Shown: in pieces, positions 16,308-27,808 of the stretch | How the letters are laid out: every line of letters begins with the position of its first letter | How positions within the stretch are numbered: the first letter of the stretch is position 1 | Assembly (NCBI RefSeq): GCF_000170755.1 | Contig: NZ_ABCK01000004.1 | Span: 1 to 64,000 of the forward strand | Reading direction: 5' to 3' | Length of the DNA: 64,000 nucleotides | Source of the DNA: Lentisphaera araneosa HTCC2155 | GTDB taxonomy: Bacteria; Verrucomicrobiota; Lentisphaeria; Lentisphaerales; Lentisphaeraceae | Notes under the pieces: model-generated | Database searches by the model: none | What the model saw: the letters and a program-made list of their open reading frames with translations, nothing else | Told to the model about the DNA's origin: nothing | Translations under genes and position numbers: made by a program

Positions 16308-17651
16308 CTATTTTATTTCTGAATAAGGGGCGTTTTTTGAAATTTCATTAAGAATGGTCTGATACTCTTCGGATAATTCTTTAATGAGTTCGGGCATGGA
16401 TTGAGCTAAGTTTTTACTTTCCTTGTGATCATCAGCCAAATTATAGAGCTCTTGCTTCTTTTTGTTGACGACGAGTTTCCAAGGACCTTTGCGGAGGGCG
16501 CCAGAGCCTTTACCATTTTCCCAAATGAGTGTGCGCTCATTGAGTTTTTTATTGTTGAAAACGGTTGGGTGAATATCGACTCCATCGAGTTGATGATTTG
16601 CGGGAATCGCAACACCAGCCGCTTTTATTGAGCTCGCCGTGATATCAAAAGTCATCATTGTTTGGTCGGAAACAGATCCAGCTTTGATACGCCCTGGGGC
16701 CCATACGAGTGCGGGGACTCTGTGTCCACCTTCGTACATGCTACCTTTAGCGCCACGAGTATTTTCACTATGGGAGTGATTTCCTTTGGCAGCACCATTA
16801 TCACTGAGAAACCAAACGATGGTATTTTTATCGATCTTGAGTTCAACAAGTTTATCGAGAATACGATTGACGCCTTCGTCAACGGGGAGAGTGAAGTGTT
16901 TCATCAGCCAATTATCATCGCCTGGAGTTTTGCTATATTCAATTTTTGGGGCCCAAGCGGGGACTTGCCCTTTATTAGGGCCACGTTGAATTTTTGAGCC
17001 ACGGGCTTGGAAAGGCGAGTGGGGAGTGCCGTGAGCCACATAGAGAAAAAAGGGTTTCTCTTTGTTGCGTTCAATGAAATCGAGTGAATGTTCAGTAATG
17101 AGATCGGAATGATGACCTTTCTCATCTTTGAGTTCCCTTGCTTGCCACCAGTCAAAAGTACTCATGCGATCGTAGTGGGATTGAGCATCAATATTACCAC
17201 TAATGAAGCCAACGAATTCATCAAAGCCATGATTCATTGGGTGAAACTCAGCTTTATAGCCTATATGCCATTTACCGAAGACTGCGGTTGCGTAATCCGC
17301 AGATTTCATGGCTTCGGGGAACGTCCATTCTTCGTCTCGAATACCCCGCACATGATCGGGGTGTTTTGGGTCGGCATTAATAACCACATCACATCCACTG
17401 CGCTGTTGATAACGTCCCGTCATGAGTGCGGCACGGGTAGGGCTACAGACGACGCCATTGGAGTGGAAGTCGGTGAGTTTCATTCCCTCAACTGCCATAC
17501 GGTCGATACCTGGTGTTTTATAGTACTTATTATCAAAACTACTAATTCCTGCCCAGCCCATATCGTCAACCATAATGACAATAATATTGGGTTTTGCGGA
17601 GTCCGCAAAAATTGGTAGGCAGAGTAATAAAGAGAGAAGAAATTTAGTCAT
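16308..17651 (-). CDS. Secreted sulfatase (formylglycine type)
   Basis: Hydrolyses sulfate esters, probably on marine polysaccharide, outside the cytoplasm. A short signal peptide (FLLSLLLCLPIFA) precedes the N-terminal metal site KPNIIVIMVDDMG. The active-site signature CSPTR, followed by GRYQQRSG, near residue 69 gives the Cys that is turned to formylglycine. FLSDNGAA holds the second metal-binding pair. At 447 residues it is a full family S1 sulfatase. It starts three bases after the next sulfatase's stop, forming a two-gene operon. Confidence 0.92.
   Translation of the reverse strand: MTKFLLSLLLCLPIFADSAKPNIIVIMVDDMGWAGISSFDNKYYKTPGIDRMAVEGMKLTDFHSNGVVCSPTRAALMTGRYQQRSGCDVVINADPKHPDHVRGIRDEEWTFPEAMKSADYATAVFGKWHIGYKAEFHPMNHGFDEFVGFISGNIDAQSHYDRMSTFDWWQARELKDEKGHHSDLITEHSLDFIERNKEKPFFLYVAHGTPHSPFQARGSKIQRGPNKGQVPAWAPKIEYSKTPGDDNWLMKHFTLPVDEGVNRILDKLVELKIDKNTIVWFLSDNGAAKGNHSHSENTRGAKGSMYEGGHRVPALVWAPGRIKAGSVSDQTMMTFDITASSIKAAGVAIPANHQLDGVDIHPTVFNNKKLNERTLIWENGKGSGALRKGPWKLVVNKKKQELYNLADDHKESKNLAQSMPELIKELSEEYQTILNEISKNAPYSEIK
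16598..16612. repeat. Interrupted palindrome TTGCG-N5-CGCAA in sulfatase gene
   Basis: Exact copy with N5 = GGAAT. On the coding strand GCG ATT CCC GCA encodes Ala-Ile-Pro-Ala. Confidence 0.8.
17594..17608. repeat. Interrupted palindrome TTGCG-N5-CGCAA in sulfatase signal region
   Basis: Exact copy with N5 = GAGTC. On the coding strand GCG GAC TCC GCA encodes Ala-Asp-Ser-Ala, at the end of the signal peptide. Confidence 0.8.
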
Positions 17652-17653
17652 GA

Positions 17654-19228
17654 TTAATCCTGTTTAAGTTGAGGGAACTTAGCTAAGATTGGCTTTCCAA
17701 AAGGAATGGCGCCTTCATTAGTTTGTGGAGCACCAGGAGTTGAACGACCTGCTTTAATTTCTTTAGCCAACTGATTGACGAGGTTATCGACGATTTCCGG
17801 ATGCGCGTCCTGTAAGTTGTTTTTCTCAGCTGGATCACCATCTAGGTCATAGAGTTGAATAAGGGGTAAACCTTTCGTTGCTTTTCCTGGACGTGGGGCA
17901 CTCCAACCACCAGATCCTGGGCAGAGGTTGAGCTTCCATTTCCCTTGGCGAATGGCAAAACTTCCATTTATGGAATGGTGAATAGTGAAAGGGCGTTTTG
18001 TTTTACCAGATTGAGTGAGATCAGCGTAAAAAGAGTAGCTGTCTTCAGCCATAGTGTCTTCGATTGAAGCTGATAGCTTGGCCGCATCTGCGGCGGTCGC
18101 AAAAAAGTCTGTGGTACAGATTGTGGAATCAGACTGTGTTTTCGTTTGTACTTGAGCGGGCCAGCGAACGAGGAAAGGGACGCGGTGTCCGCCTTCAAAA
18201 ATATCAGCTTTGTGACCACGCCATTGACCATTGGGACTATGACCAATTTTGATGTGTTCAGGAATACTACCCGTTGGAGAGCAACCATTATCAGCCGTAA
18301 ACACAATGAGTGTGTTATCGGCAATGCCTTGCTTGTCGAGTTCAGCCATAACTTCACCTACAACCCAGTCAGTCTCCATGACAAAGTCACCGTAGATGGT
18401 TTTTGTTGGTGATTTACCTAAGAATTTCTCCGAAGGCATAATAGGCGTATGTGGAGAAGTGAGCGGAAGGTAGAGGAAAAAGGGCTTGGATTTATCTGCC
18501 GCTTGCTGAGCAATGTACTTTCTTGATTTATCAGCAAAAGTCATGAGGCAGTAGGTGGCATCAAAACTTGGGCCTGTTGCACCAGGGCGATATGGAGTAG
18601 CAAAGCCGCGTTCGTGTGTGGCCATTTCTACGGCTTTGTCGTTTTCAATATAAACGTAAGGGGACATGTCGAGTGATGCAGCAATACCGTAGAAGTAATC
18701 AAAACCATTATGAATGGGAGTGATAGCTGGTTTACTGTAATCCACCTTCCATGATGCAGCTTGCTTATTGTTTTTCATTTTATAACCTTCTTTGAGGAAG
18801 GATTTTTCCGGTTTTTTTGCTTCATCAAGCATTTGCCAGCCAATCCCAAGATGCCATTTTCCCACCATGCCCGTATGGTAGCCTTGATCTTTGAGGAAGT
18901 TGGCGATGGTGACGCGATCTTGTGGGATGAGTGGTGCGGAAGTACCACTTAATACACCTTTCTTTTTACTCGAGCGCCAGTTGTAACGCCCCGTTAGAAT
19001 GCCGTAGCGCGTGGGAGTACAAACGGAACTAGACGTGTGTGCGTCGGTAAATTTCATACCTTCATCCGCCATGCGGTCGAGGTGTGGAGTGGGGATAAGG
19101 CCACCTTCATTGCTCATGTCGCCATAGCCCATGTCATCGGCGAGGATAAAGATTATATTGGGTTTATCCTGAGCGCTGAGCGACAGACAGAAGAGAGAAA
19201 AAATCAGTAGACTGATATGTTTAAGCAT
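17654..19228 (-). CDS. Secreted sulfatase, arylsulfatase-A-like
   Basis: First gene of the sulfatase pair. The 524-residue protein has a signal peptide (HISLLIFSLFCLSLSAQ), the metal site KPNIIFILADDMGYGD, and the formylglycine signature VCTPTRYGILTGRYNW near residue 69. A later VFTADNGC holds the second metal pair. The C-terminal region (GKWKLNLCPG, LYDLDGDPAEKNNL) is typical of the family. The substrate cannot be told. It is divergent from the sigma-factor gene, with 142 bases between them. Confidence 0.93.
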   Translation of the reverse strand: MLKHISLLIFSLFCLSLSAQDKPNIIFILADDMGYGDMSNEGGLIPTPHLDRMADEGMKFTDAHTSSSVCTPTRYGILTGRYNWRSSKKKGVLSGTSAPLIPQDRVTIANFLKDQGYHTGMVGKWHLGIGWQMLDEAKKPEKSFLKEGYKMKNNKQAASWKVDYSKPAITPIHNGFDYFYGIAASLDMSPYVYIENDKAVEMATHERGFATPYRPGATGPSFDATYCLMTFADKSRKYIAQQAADKSKPFFLYLPLTSPHTPIMPSEKFLGKSPTKTIYGDFVMETDWVVGEVMAELDKQGIADNTLIVFTADNGCSPTGSIPEHIKIGHSPNGQWRGHKADIFEGGHRVPFLVRWPAQVQTKTQSDSTICTTDFFATAADAAKLSASIEDTMAEDSYSFYADLTQSGKTKRPFTIHHSINGSFAIRQGKWKLNLCPGSGGWSAPRPGKATKGLPLIQLYDLDGDPAEKNNLQDAHPEIVDNLVNQLAKEIKAGRSTPGAPQTNEGAIPFGKPILAKFPQLKQD

Positions 19229-19370: not shown

Positions 19371-19967
19371 ATGCCTGAAGATTTCAACACTCGAATGACC
19401 CTCTTAGGGCGTTTGCGAAATAAGCACGATGAGTCGGCATGGCAGGAGTTTGTCTTCTTTTACAAACAGTATATCAATGCCATTCTTTATAGGCTGGGAG
19501 TGCAGAATTCAGATATCGAAGATCAGGCCCAAAAAGTTCTTTTGGCTCTATGGGAAAAACTTCCAGATTTCGATTACCAACCTCAGAATTGTAAATTCCG
19601 CACTTGGATGAGCCGCATTATTCGCAATAAAGTGAGCCATTATTTTGAAAAACAAAAACGCTATAAAAATGATCTAGAGCGCGCGGAATTTAGCCAACGC
19701 AATGAGCAGAAAAGTAATGAAGCGGAAATCTATCAGGTCTATGAACAAGAATGGAAAATTCACGTGGCTAATTTGGCTTGGGAGAATTTGAGTAAGGAGT
19801 TTTCCATGAGTGCGCTTAAATGCTTCGAAGATTTAGCCAAGGGGAAAAAAGCTTCTGAGCTAGCCGAAGAGCTCGATTTAAAAGTGAATTCAGTATTTGT
19901 GAACCGTAAACGAGTTCAAGAAGCCTTTCACAAAGAAATTAGACGTTTGAATGAGGAACTGAGTTAG
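19371..19967 (+). CDS. ECF-like sigma-70 family factor
   Basis: A 198-residue factor expected to direct RNA polymerase to specific promoters. Region 2 is visible (SAWQEFVFFYKQYINAILYR, then DIEDQAQKVLLALWEKLPDF, then FRTWMSRIIRNKVSHYF), followed by a linker and a C-terminal helix-turn-helix (GKKASELAEELDLKVNSVFVNRKRV) for region 4. The ATG at 19371 has GGAG 6 bases upstream. Its stop overlaps the GTG of the kinase gene, so both proteins are probably made together. Pairs of ECF sigma factors and Ser/Thr kinases are known from planctomycetes. Confidence 0.88.
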   Translation: MPEDFNTRMTLLGRLRNKHDESAWQEFVFFYKQYINAILYRLGVQNSDIEDQAQKVLLALWEKLPDFDYQPQNCKFRTWMSRIIRNKVSHYFEKQKRYKNDLERAEFSQRNEQKSNEAEIYQVYEQEWKIHVANLAWENLSKEFSMSALKCFEDLAKGKKASELAEELDLKVNSVFVNRKRVQEAFHKEIRRLNEELS

Positions 19968-22006
19968 TGCCAAAGGATAGCAATAGGTCTTGGCTAATGG
20001 ACAGTTTTGATCAAGCTTTAGACGATGACCAGGCTTTGCTCAAAGATTCTGAGCTAGTGAGGAAAATCCAAAACTTGGGTGCTCGCTATGAATTGGGGGA
20101 GTCTTTAGGTGAAGGTGGACAAAAACACATATTAGCCTGCAAAGATAGCTTTACTCAAAGAAAAGTCGCTATGGCAATGCTCAAAGAATCTCAAAAGCTA
20201 TCTAATAATGAGGCCTTTATTAATGAGGCTAGAATTTCTGCTCATTTGGAACACCCAAATATAGTTCCTCTGTATGATCTAGGTTTAGACGAAGATAATA
20301 AACCTTATTTCACAATGAAATTATTGAGTGGTGAAAATCTTCAGAAAATTATTGAGGGCCAGAGTTTAAGCGTAAATGAAAGTTTAGAAATTTTTCTTAA
20401 AGTTTGTGACGCCATGGCCTATGCCCATTCCCAAGGAATTGTTCATTTAGATTTAAAACCAGAAAATATCCAAGTCGATAGTTTTGGGCAGGTTTTAGTT
20501 TGTGATTGGGGCTTGGCGCAAAACCTTAAAGAACTTCAAGCATCAGATAAAAAATCTATTCGAGGAAGTCTTGCTTACATGGCTCCTGAACAAATTAAGG
20601 GTGAAGGCATTGGGATAGAGAGTGATATTTATGCCCTGGGTGGGATTCTTTATGCCTTATTTATTGGAGAATCTTCTTATTCATCAAGCGACTGTCAGGA
20701 AAGGATGAAGGCTCCAGAGTTAAAACCTATTGACGACATGTTGGCAAAGCTTAATCAAATTCCATTGGGAATTAAAGCAGTTGTACTTAAAGCTATGGAA
20801 AGCGATATCCAAGATCGTTATAAGGTAGTGAGTGACGTATCAAAAGAAATTCGAGCTTACATTGCGGGCTTCGCAACAAGTGCAGAAAATCCGAGTGCTT
20901 TTACACTGATACAAAAAGCCGTGGCTCGACATAAAACTCTAAGTTTCGTTATGCTAAGTTCCCTGATCTTAATCTCGGTACTAGGTGTTTTGTCTTTTAT
21001 CAAAATTAATAATGAAAGAAATATAGCTCAAGAAGCGCAAGAAATAGCGGAAATATCTGAACGTAAAACCCGAGTTTTGTTTGGAGAGCTCAAACTTGAA
21101 CAAGAAATACGCCAAGCTATTTCAGAATCTTCTGCCAAGGCCTTCTTGCAGCTTGCCAAGGATGATTATCAAAGAGGGAAGTATGAAGCTTCTTTAAATG
21201 CAGTAAAAGAATCCCTAAAACTTGATGCTAAAATTAAAGAAGCTTGGGATTTGAGAGGGAAACTTGAATTTGGCTATTTACGTTTCAGTGCGGCAAAAAA
21301 AAGTTTACAGAAAGGAAGTTTAAGTCCAAAACAAGAGTGGTTAATGGAGCTTGCAGATAAAGGTTTAACCAAGGAAGGTGAAACGAAGCCGAGTGCGAAA
21401 CAAATTTATGATGTTCGTCGTGAGATAGTCCGTGGAGAATTTCGTTTTAGTGGTTTACACGCACTGATGTTCTACAACATGGTGAAAAACTATAACATTG
21501 AAGAGCGTTTAATGTTTGCGGAACAAAGCTATCGCGATAATCATAAGTTTTTCGCGGGACGTCAGGATGATGCTAATTTTAAGCTTCAAAAACTAGGGGA
21601 ATATTACAGTATAGATGCTAGTGGAAACAAAGGGACTCGTATGACAATTGTTCTTTTTGAGCTTCCCATTACTTCATTAAATTTAAGTGGGTCAGGAGTA
21701 AAACAATTAGAAGGTTTAAGAGGCATGTCTTTGAGATCTTTAGATATTTCTAATACAGCCGTTAGTTCTATTAGTTCATTAAAAGAAACTAAAATAGAAT
21801 ATTTAAATCTTTGCGATACGAATGTTTTTGATTTGTCACCTTTGCGAGATACGCAAATCAAACATTTAGTTTTAGGTGATAGCCCTTTAGATATTAAAGT
21901 ATTAAAACATTGTAAATCTTTAGAGGCATTAGAACTCCCTAATAATGTTTACTCGGAAAAGCTTCTCGAAGGTCTCAAGCTCTTAGATAAAGTTATTTAC
22001 CGTTAA
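19967..22006 (+). CDS. Ser/Thr kinase-like protein with LRR domain, ATP lysine missing
   Basis: The kinase fold runs from about residue 44 to 300. The strand that normally holds VAIK reads VAMAML, so Ala replaces the ATP-anchoring Lys. The catalytic loop is HLDLKPEN (Leu for Arg, Asp and Asn kept), then DWG and GSLAYMAPEQ. A membrane span lies near 325-347 (LSFVMLSSLILISVLGVLSF), then a coiled coil, TPR-like helices, and about four leucine-rich repeats (SLNLSGSGVKQL, SLDISNTAVSSI, YLNLCDTNVFDL, HLVLGDSPLD) outside the membrane. The GTG start shares a base with the sigma stop. It may be a pseudokinase sensor or an atypical kinase; partner control of the sigma factor is inferred. Confidence 0.88.
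   Translation: MPKDSNRSWLMDSFDQALDDDQALLKDSELVRKIQNLGARYELGESLGEGGQKHILACKDSFTQRKVAMAMLKESQKLSNNEAFINEARISAHLEHPNIVPLYDLGLDEDNKPYFTMKLLSGENLQKIIEGQSLSVNESLEIFLKVCDAMAYAHSQGIVHLDLKPENIQVDSFGQVLVCDWGLAQNLKELQASDKKSIRGSLAYMAPEQIKGEGIGIESDIYALGGILYALFIGESSYSSSDCQERMKAPELKPIDDMLAKLNQIPLGIKAVVLKAMESDIQDRYKVVSDVSKEIRAYIAGFATSAENPSAFTLIQKAVARHKTLSFVMLSSLILISVLGVLSFIKINNERNIAQEAQEIAEISERKTRVLFGELKLEQEIRQAISESSAKAFLQLAKDDYQRGKYEASLNAVKESLKLDAKIKEAWDLRGKLEFGYLRFSAAKKSLQKGSLSPKQEWLMELADKGLTKEGETKPSAKQIYDVRREIVRGEFRFSGLHALMFYNMVKNYNIEERLMFAEQSYRDNHKFFAGRQDDANFKLQKLGEYYSIDASGNKGTRMTIVLFELPITSLNLSGSGVKQLEGLRGMSLRSLDISNTAVSSISSLKETKIEYLNLCDTNVFDLSPLRDTQIKHLVLGDSPLDIKVLKHCKSLEALELPNNVYSEKLLEGLKLLDKVIYR
20862..20876. 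repeat. Interrupted palindrome TTGCG-N5-CGCAA in kinase-LRR gene
   Basis: Exact copy with N5 = GGCTT; GCG GGC TTC GCA encodes Ala-Gly-Phe-Ala just after the kinase domain. Confidence 0.8.
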
Positions 22007-25552: not shown

Positions 25553-27808
25553 GTGAACGAAGAGAGAAATAAAACAATAGTTGAGAGTCCGACCATACAA
25601 ATGGAACGTGAGTCTATAAAGGTTTCAGTCAAGCTATTACCAAACTCACTTCCTAAGACGGCAACAAGTTCAGTAAAGAACGAGGATAAAGTTGATACAC
25701 ATGTGTTCGCTCAGCAAATTACAACGTGTAAGCTCGCATTTACTGAATTAGATCCTTATTCAGCTGATGATGAAGATCACGTTGATGTTACTTTGATATA
25801 TGAAGTTAAAGAAGCTTTTGCCGAAGGAGCGCAAGGTGCTATTCACAAGGCAAGAGATAAGCACTTGCTGCGTGATGTAGTAGTTAAAAAACTCAAAGAA
25901 AACACAATGCGCCGACCTTTCATCAAGGAAGCACAACTCACAGCCCAACTGGACCATCCGGCCATTATTCCTATTTATAGTCTCAATTCTTCAAATCAGA
26001 ACGACATTTACTTCGCCATGAAAAAAGTAAATGGCATAACTTTGCGTGAATATTTAGATCGAGTGAGTGATCATTATTATTTTAAAGGCTTTGATCAAAA
26101 AGTAGAAAAATCCTCACTCAACACACGACTTGAACACTTTATAAAAATATGTGAAGCAGTTCAGTACGCGCATTTAAAGAAGGTAATTCATCGCGATTTA
26201 AAACCAGATAATGTCATGATTGGGGAATCGCGAGAAGTGTACGTGATGGATTGGGGGATTGCCTATTGTTTCGATGATCCCGAAAATCAACGACCAGAAG
26301 TCATTGAACACATGAAACATAATATATGTGGGTCTCCAGGTTATATAGATCCTCAGCTTGTTTGTAATCCATTTCCAGATGAACCCACAGATGTTTATTC
26401 ACTTGGAATGATTTTGCATGAAGTTTGCACTCTCCAGCGAGGATTTAGTGGTTTTAATACGAATGAACTCTTTGAGCAAGCAATTCGTAATCAGTTTCCA
26501 GAGGTAAAGCACCGTTTCTCTAAAGGTGTGATTGCGCCAGAATTAAAGTCGATTATTGAGAAAGCTAGAAATCCTAATTTACTCTTTCGCTATAGGTCCG
26601 TGGAAGAACTTTCCGAGGATATTCGTCGCTATTTACGCAATGATGAAGTTTCGAGTTTACCCGATAAACCAGCGCGAAAGGTTATGCGATGGGCGCAAAA
26701 AAACCCCTATCCTATGACAGTGATAATGCTGACGATAATCATCAGTTTATCCTCTACAGCTATTTTTAGTTTAGTTCAACAGAATAAGGTTATAACTGAA
26801 GCTAGAGCCCGAGAAAATACCTTTGCAGACATCCAGAGTCGTGTGGCAAATAAGGCTCACATTATCGATAATCAATTGACGAAACTAGAGCAGCTTTTGA
26901 GCCGTTTAAGTGCCAGTATACTGAGTGTACCCGAAATGCGAAATGAAGGTGTAAAACTTTATTCATCAGCAGATTTTTTGAACTCCAATACCAAGCCTAA
27001 AGATACGATATACTCATCGATATTTGGTAAAGAGGTTAGTGTGAATTCAATAGTCTATCATTTAGCTCCAAAGACAGATTTTGATGAAGTTGAAAACTAC
27101 CTATCTTATTTGTTTTCTTTCAAAGATGAATTTCTACAGATTATGCTCAAGAGTGAACTCAATAGTCCGAGTCATATAAGTAAAAAAGATATTAATGAAG
27201 AAAAGGTATTGCTTAAACCTTTACCAGTAAGATGGATTTACTGTGGTTTAGAAAACGGTGTCTTTGTTTCTTACCCAGGTAAAGGCGGTTATCCAGATAA
27301 ATATGATCATCGCAAACGGCCTTGGTATAAAGAATCAAAAGGAAGACGAGGCATTGTTTGGGCAAAGCCTTATTATGATATAAATGGACTAGGTCTCGTT
27401 ATGCCATGTACAATAAGCCTATACAATCAAGAAGATGAATTTCGAGGAGTTTTAGCCTTTGATTTAACCATCGATTATATAGCCAGCCAAATGATGCTGA
27501 CTGATTCAGAATATCGACACAAAGCATTACTTGAGTCAGTAATTCTCAATGATGTGGGTGAAGTCATGGTGAGTAGTTCTCTTTTGAAAAAGAATAAAAA
27601 AACAAGCGCAATGATTAACTCATCGATAAAGCGTGTTCATTACTCAAATAAAGAAGTCTTAGCAGTGATTAAGAAAAAGAAGAGTACTGTTTTTTCCGTA
27701 GAGGAAAACACAGGACATTATATTTATGCCGTTAATCATATACCGACTTTAAATTGGTATTATGTAGAAAAGTACGACGCAAACAAATGCTTATTAAATG
27801 AACACTAA
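25553..27808 (+). CDS. Ser/Thr kinase with periplasmic Cache sensor
   Basis: Cytoplasmic kinase domain at residues 85-365, one membrane span near 385-405 (YPMTVIMLTIIISLSSTAIF) and a periplasmic dCache-like domain to the end. The kinase has VVVK, HRDLKPDN, DWG and GSPGYIDPQ, so it looks active, though the glycine loop is unusual (AEGAQGAI). The Cache part has DHRKRPWYKES, PYYD and VLAFDLT, which resemble the ligand-contact residues of amino-acid-sensing dCache_1 domains. The start is a GTG with AGAGG about 9 bases upstream. A paralogue lies at 29687. Confidence 0.9.
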   Translation: MNEERNKTIVESPTIQMERESIKVSVKLLPNSLPKTATSSVKNEDKVDTHVFAQQITTCKLAFTELDPYSADDEDHVDVTLIYEVKEAFAEGAQGAIHKARDKHLLRDVVVKKLKENTMRRPFIKEAQLTAQLDHPAIIPIYSLNSSNQNDIYFAMKKVNGITLREYLDRVSDHYYFKGFDQKVEKSSLNTRLEHFIKICEAVQYAHLKKVIHRDLKPDNVMIGESREVYVMDWGIAYCFDDPENQRPEVIEHMKHNICGSPGYIDPQLVCNPFPDEPTDVYSLGMILHEVCTLQRGFSGFNTNELFEQAIRNQFPEVKHRFSKGVIAPELKSIIEKARNPNLLFRYRSVEELSEDIRRYLRNDEVSSLPDKPARKVMRWAQKNPYPMTVIMLTIIISLSSTAIFSLVQQNKVITEARARENTFADIQSRVANKAHIIDNQLTKLEQLLSRLSASILSVPEMRNEGVKLYSSADFLNSNTKPKDTIYSSIFGKEVSVNSIVYHLAPKTDFDEVENYLSYLFSFKDEFLQIMLKSELNSPSHISKKDINEEKVLLKPLPVRWIYCGLENGVFVSYPGKGGYPDKYDHRKRPWYKESKGRRGIVWAKPYYDINGLGLVMPCTISLYNQEDEFRGVLAFDLTIDYIASQMMLTDSEYRHKALLESVILNDVGEVMVSSSLLKKNKKTSAMINSSIKRVHYSNKEVLAVIKKKKSTVFSVEENTGHYIYAVNHIPTLNWYYVEKYDANKCLLNEH

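Follow-up and report, generated by a model that had tools for sequence, protein, structure and literature searches.

A sigma factor gene and a membrane kinase gene

Two adjoining genes on the plus strand were analysed in the first 64,000 nt of contig NZ_ABCK01000004.1 of Lentisphaera araneosa HTCC2155 (hereafter the window), which belongs to a genome of 6.0 Mb. The features of the two genes are as follows.

19371..19967, plus strand: ECF-type sigma factor gene, 198 aa; sigma2.2 motif DIEDQ intact, N-terminal TRxTLL (Thr7, Thr10)
19967..22006, plus strand: membrane Ser/Thr kinase gene, 679 aa, GTG start
20069..20896, plus strand: cytoplasmic protein kinase domain, aa 35-310 (Pfam, AlphaFold; closest solved fold PknB)
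20123..20125, plus strand: codon of Lys53, the proposed relocated catalytic lysine, which begins beta2 at the site of the third Gly in the Gly-rich loop (GEGGQK)
20174..20176, plus strand: codon of Ala70 at the VAIK lysine site in beta3 (VAMA in place of VAIK)
20225..20227, plus strand: codon of Glu87, the invariant alphaC glutamate (alignment, AlphaFold)
20444..20467, plus strand: catalytic loop HLDLKPEN with Asp162, Lys164 and Asn167 (alignment); Leu161 makes HLD of HRD
20504..20512, plus strand: metal-binding DWG with Asp180 (alignment)
20933..21001, plus strand: single transmembrane helix, about aa 323-345 (AlphaFold)
21020..21370, plus strand: outer part with a long coiled-coil-like helix and TPR-like helices (AlphaFold, structural matches)
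21575..22003, plus strand: C-terminal leucine-rich repeats (LRR) with a period of about 21 residues (AlphaFold, structural matches)

The sigma protein was matched by Pfam Sigma70_r2 (E 1.9e-11) and by the ECF profile TIGR02937 (45.2 bits vs a cut-off of 42.9), and the kinase by Pfam Pkinase (E 9.6e-45; 153.5 bits vs a cut-off of 31.7). The overlap of the sigma stop and the kinase start noted in the initial annotation was borne out by the ORF coordinates, TAG and GTG having 1 nt in common. In the congeneric orthologues L145 and L146, the ORF coordinates imply the same 1-nt overlap, with ATG instead of GTG. Kinase orthologues in two Lentisphaera genomes were 67% and 61% identical, and the closest one in the named genome collection was that of Lentisphaera marina (67%).

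In the structural comparison the kinase domain was closest to PknB (Z 32.0 over 255 residues, rmsd 2.3). The coiled coil, TPR-like helices and LRR previously proposed for the outer part were all recovered in the AlphaFold model and the fold matches: a long helix (aa 352-402) is followed by TPR-like helices to about aa 466 and later by LRR strands at aa 568, 591, 612, 633 and 654, and the outer part matched LRR proteins (Z 15.0 over 157 residues) and a designed TPR (Z 12.6 over 82 residues). Elsewhere in the window (25553-27808, plus strand) lies a second membrane kinase that has HRD and the ordinary lysine (VVVKKLK) and bears a dCache/MCP-like sensor domain in its outer part; L. marina has a close counterpart of it at a comparable distance (L005).

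The catalytic lysine in the kinase family

The window kinase has most features of active Hanks-type kinases, i.e., the fold, the Pkinase profile, the alphaC Glu, the Asp and Asn of HxD and the Asp of DxG, and it has Ala70 where the beta3 lysine of VAIK is expected. The initial annotation was thus correct on Ala for the VAIK lysine, on Leu for the HRD arginine (L161) and on the retention of Asp162 and Asn167, and overlooked Lys53 in GEGGQK. The spacing between Lys53 and Ala70 is 17 residues, equal to that between G55 and K72 of PKA. In the AlphaFold model, with mostly high-pLDDT blocks, Lys53 is the first residue of beta2, Ala70 lies in beta3 and Glu87 in alphaC. Position 55 of PKA, the third Gly, is where WNK kinases carry the lysine needed for catalysis (PMC1821047; PMC10211241; PMC4718504). 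Since Lys53 occupies the same position, it may work as in WNK and could compensate for Ala70; judged from sequence, it is very probably the functional ATP-positioning lysine of this kinase.

The exchange is not confined to the window. Among 97 aligned kinase-like ORFs of the source genome, 61 had a Lys at the third Gly and all 61 of them had Ala at the VAIK site, and the loop Lys was absent from every ordinary (VAxK) kinase in this alignment. Three sets of loci from outside this genome gave 27 vs 103, 61 vs 19 and 2 vs 30 swap and canonical kinases, the window protein being the reference in each set and counted in each. In the non-redundant merged set of 319 non-identical kinase domains, 138 (swap kinases) combined a loop Lys with beta3 Ala, Thr or Gly, 179 had the beta3 Lys, none had both and two had neither. 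One of these two (L253) reflects a one-residue alignment slip (AMKVVHQ) and does possess the Lys, and the other (L209) is decayed in every motif. In canonical kinases the loop position was Gly, Ala, Ser or, once, Ile. All 138 swap kinases, the window protein included, lacked the VAIK lysine and carried the third-Gly Lys; the alphaC Glu and the Asp and Asn of HxD were present in 138/138 and the Asp of DWG in 137/138. A chance or one-off substitution is excluded by these 138 relatives.

The proposal that the protein is a pseudokinase lacking the ATP lysine is therefore unsupported: the Ala at the VAIK site is indeed conserved in orthologues and paralogues, but the kinases of the clade with beta3 Ala, Thr or Gly all carry the loop Lys and show little or no variation in the remaining catalytic residues. 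A nearby lysine in place of the VAIK lysine, which by the initial annotation's own account would speak against that proposal, was found at the sequence level in Lys53.

Two aberrant copies were observed. L209 (G000 C5:194691-196604; L209:2351-4264) is a decayed pseudokinase within the swap clade that has lost the Gly-loop, VAIK, HRD and DFG residues. Another swap kinase (G000 C7:243434-245602; L186:2486-4654) is split by an in-frame TAA while its adjacent sigma partner is intact, which could be caused either by a decaying gene or by an assembly error.

A TM-like segment follows the kinase domain in 59/61 swap kinases of the source genome. The outer parts of these proteins vary, with LRR in 18/59, TPR in at least 13, and an EF-hand and a CBM6 in one each.

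Coupling with the sigma factor and possible mode of action

A sigma paralogue was found within 400 nt of 51/61 swap kinases of the source genome vs 5/32 ordinary kinases (Fisher p=1.6e-10). In 35 of the 51 pairs the sigma gene lies upstream on the same strand, and 12 pairs are in a non-operon, convergent order. Over 48 pairs the sigma and kinase distances were correlated (Mantel r=0.69; 0/5000 permutations). From this correlated divergence it follows that the partners are inherited as a unit; binding between them would be consistent with it but is not proved by it. The coupling anticipated in the initial annotation is thus real and family-wide. No sigma gene lies within 400 nt of 10/61 swap kinases, and nine close sigma paralogues have no swap kinase within that distance (L206, L210, L213, L219, L188, L221, L201, L230 and L232); several of the latter, e.g., L210, adjoin sulfatase-like genes.

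The paired sigma factors have retained the acidic sigma2.2 motif. Asp or Glu was present at its three acidic positions in 36, 42 and 51 of the 51, the Gln was kept as well, and the window sigma reads DIED. Since this RNA polymerase-binding motif is kept, the sigma factor should bind RNA polymerase unphosphorylated, and any phosphorylation must act elsewhere. Activation of the EcfP type, in which phosphate replaces the acidic motif, was rejected given the presence of that motif. The only invariant hydroxyl residues of the paired sigmas were the Thr of the N-terminal TRxTLL, which are common to most unpaired paralogues too; no phosphosite specific to the 51 paired sigmas was found in comparison with the unpaired paralogues, and the N-terminal Thr was rejected as such a site.

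These data are best explained by an active receptor kinase whose lysine has been relocated as in WNK and which controls the co-encoded sigma factor; we regard this reading as reasonably probable. The ATP-positioning lysine would have moved from beta3 (Ala70) to the Gly-loop (Lys53), where it would pair with Glu87 and the ATP phosphates like Lys233 of WNK1. The outer TPR/LRR part may serve as the sensor, and a signal perceived there would switch the cytoplasmic kinase, which would phosphorylate the sigma factor or release it by phosphorylation. The sigma factor would then transcribe the genes under its own control, among which the nearby sulfatase genes may be found. That the kinase acts on its partner sigma in some way is likely; whether it phosphorylates the sigma factor directly is evenly balanced.

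Alternatively, the kinase could be active on a substrate other than the sigma factor, e.g., a second regulator or itself, and be linked with the sigma factor through a sigma-driven kinase operon or a shared stress response. The intact sigma2.2 motif, the lack of a phosphosite specific to the paired sigmas and the ten swap kinases and about nine sigma paralogues without a nearby partner are consistent with this explanation. However, the correlated divergence and the 12 convergent pairs favour a functional link, and we consider this explanation rather unlikely. In the model of the initial annotation, a true pseudokinase that transfers no phosphate would tether the sigma factor to the membrane and release it when a ligand binds. 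This model would fit the Ala at the VAIK site of the window kinase and its orthologues, and the intact polymerase-binding motif of the sigma factor suits an anti-sigma-like sequestration. On the other hand, the conserved loop Lys, alphaC Glu, HxD and DWG residues would be needless for a non-catalytic tether, and the sole decayed copy in the genome (L209) lost HxD, DWG and the Gly-loop together; this model appears improbable. A further possibility, which is very unlikely, is that the loop Lys has a neutral or structural role and that another lysine replaces that of VAIK. One such lysine would be Lys73 in VAMAMLK, three residues after Ala70 in the window protein; it was rejected as a substitute because its position varies among relatives (Arg, Ile, Leu, Pro and others), unlike that of the invariant loop Lys.

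With regard to the possible regulon of the sigma factor, 28/61 swap kinases have a sulfatase gene at a distance of up to 2.5 kb, vs 1/30 ordinary ones (p=2.4e-5). The enrichment was modest against randomly rotated positions (about 1-7%, with a partial sulfatase list): 18 cases were observed and 11.5 expected, and 47/2000 rotations reached the observed number. The genome has at least 151 sulfatase matches, and the association is considered here as a lead only. In the window, the sigma gene is immediately preceded by two divergently oriented sulfatase genes (16308-19228, minus strand).

Relationship with known kinases and significance

Several known systems resemble the window kinase in part. 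Like WNK1 and the other eukaryotic WNKs, it has the VAIK Lys replaced and a Lys at the third Gly at the start of beta2, and it retains the Glu of alphaC and the Asp of both HxD and DxG. However, beta3 has Ala here vs Cys in WNK, HLD and DWG are found rather than HRD and DLG, and the window kinase combines a membrane receptor architecture and a sigma partner with a sequence and fold closest to the PknB type. The halide site of WNK1 is at Leu369/Leu371 of DLG, whereas the window kinase reads DWGL, with Trp for the first Leu. The Hanks-type kinases of the PknB/StkP type are the closest solved relatives and share the single TM after the kinase domain; they differ from the window kinase, which has the relocated lysine, HLD, a TPR/LRR instead of a PASTA outer part and an adjacent sigma gene. 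An ECF sigma factor adjoins a membrane Hanks-type kinase also in the ECF43/STK pairs (EcfP-PknT of Vibrio, EcfK-PknS of Xanthomonas), but ECF43 has QTTA or STTA in place of DAED, and the kinase supplies the negative charge of sigma2.2 (PMC13147305; PMC8999054), whereas the window sigma keeps DIED and its kinase carries the loop Lys. The bacterial pseudokinases ActPs1-3, GLW, CP1, DYD and DLHK likewise have an altered VAIK motif; in the parts of the source consulted no loop Lys is described for them, several have lost HRD or DFG residues that the window kinase retains, and the parts consulted of the review of bacterial pseudokinase families make no mention of Lentisphaerae. In CAK-chloro and POMK the positive charge has moved to the Gly-loop/beta2 as well, but these are not PknB-type Ser/Thr kinases, CAK-chloro has Arg55/Met72, and the alphaC Glu or HRD/DFG is changed.

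In trees built without the two swap columns, the swap kinases formed one clade (support 0.94 in the first tree and 0.85 in the larger set). Its other members were the decayed L209, two fragments (first tree) and HLD kinases with VAMK, of which the first tree had one and the larger tree three. Since the swap kinases form one clade, the ratio of 138:0 represents long conservation and not repeated independent origin, and the lysine swap is most simply explained by a single evolutionary event. The HLD kinases with a VAMK lysine that group with the swap clade (L167, L321 and L333) are possible intermediates of the lysine move; their grouping suggests that the change from HRD to HLD preceded the relocation.

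The nearest solved relatives of the window kinase are PknB and StkP by sequence and PknB by fold, and the resemblance to WNK is thus best interpreted as probable convergence, although the trees contained no WNK sequence. No WNK was among the 50 fold matches listed, which by itself proves nothing on descent. Gene transfer from a eukaryotic WNK was rejected on the PknB-type nearest structures, the trees holding no WNK sequence.

Within Verrucomicrobiota the family has a wide distribution, with swap kinases read from many families. The initial comparison with planctomycete sigma/kinase pairs was loosely right, but 29/30 Planctomycetota genomes (chosen by best score in a sample of 294, the best kinase of each being read) gave a canonical kinase. 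This distribution is that of the best-scoring loci, and rarer swap kinases elsewhere are possible. In one genome counted as Planctomycetota (G432, L354), a swap kinase adjoins a sigma gene; this could be caused by transfer, contamination or wrong placement.

No earlier description of the family was found in the literature searched, and existing kinase or ECF surveys may list its members under other labels. According to a 2007 survey, no functional ePK family other than the WNKs lacks the VAIK lysine (PMC1821047). A bacterial clade with the same relocation would offer a second, independent case for testing the effect of the lysine move, with the HLD/VAMK relatives as a possible intermediate for such tests. 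Moreover, surveys that count kinases by their motifs would class these proteins as dead; in this genome, pseudokinases would then make up 61 of about 97 kinase-like ORFs. The results also suggest that there are many sigma/receptor-kinase pairs that have apparently gone undescribed. More speculatively, an active site of the WNK type might have arisen independently in Verrucomicrobiota and been elaborated there into a main sensory transcription system, in which each genome would have dozens of receptor kinases paired with individual sigma factors in place of two-component or anti-sigma systems, e.g., for sulfated-polysaccharide genes, and the emptied beta3 pocket might add ion or osmolyte sensing as in WNK; we put this forward tentatively, as a doubtful but conceivable scenario for the phylum.
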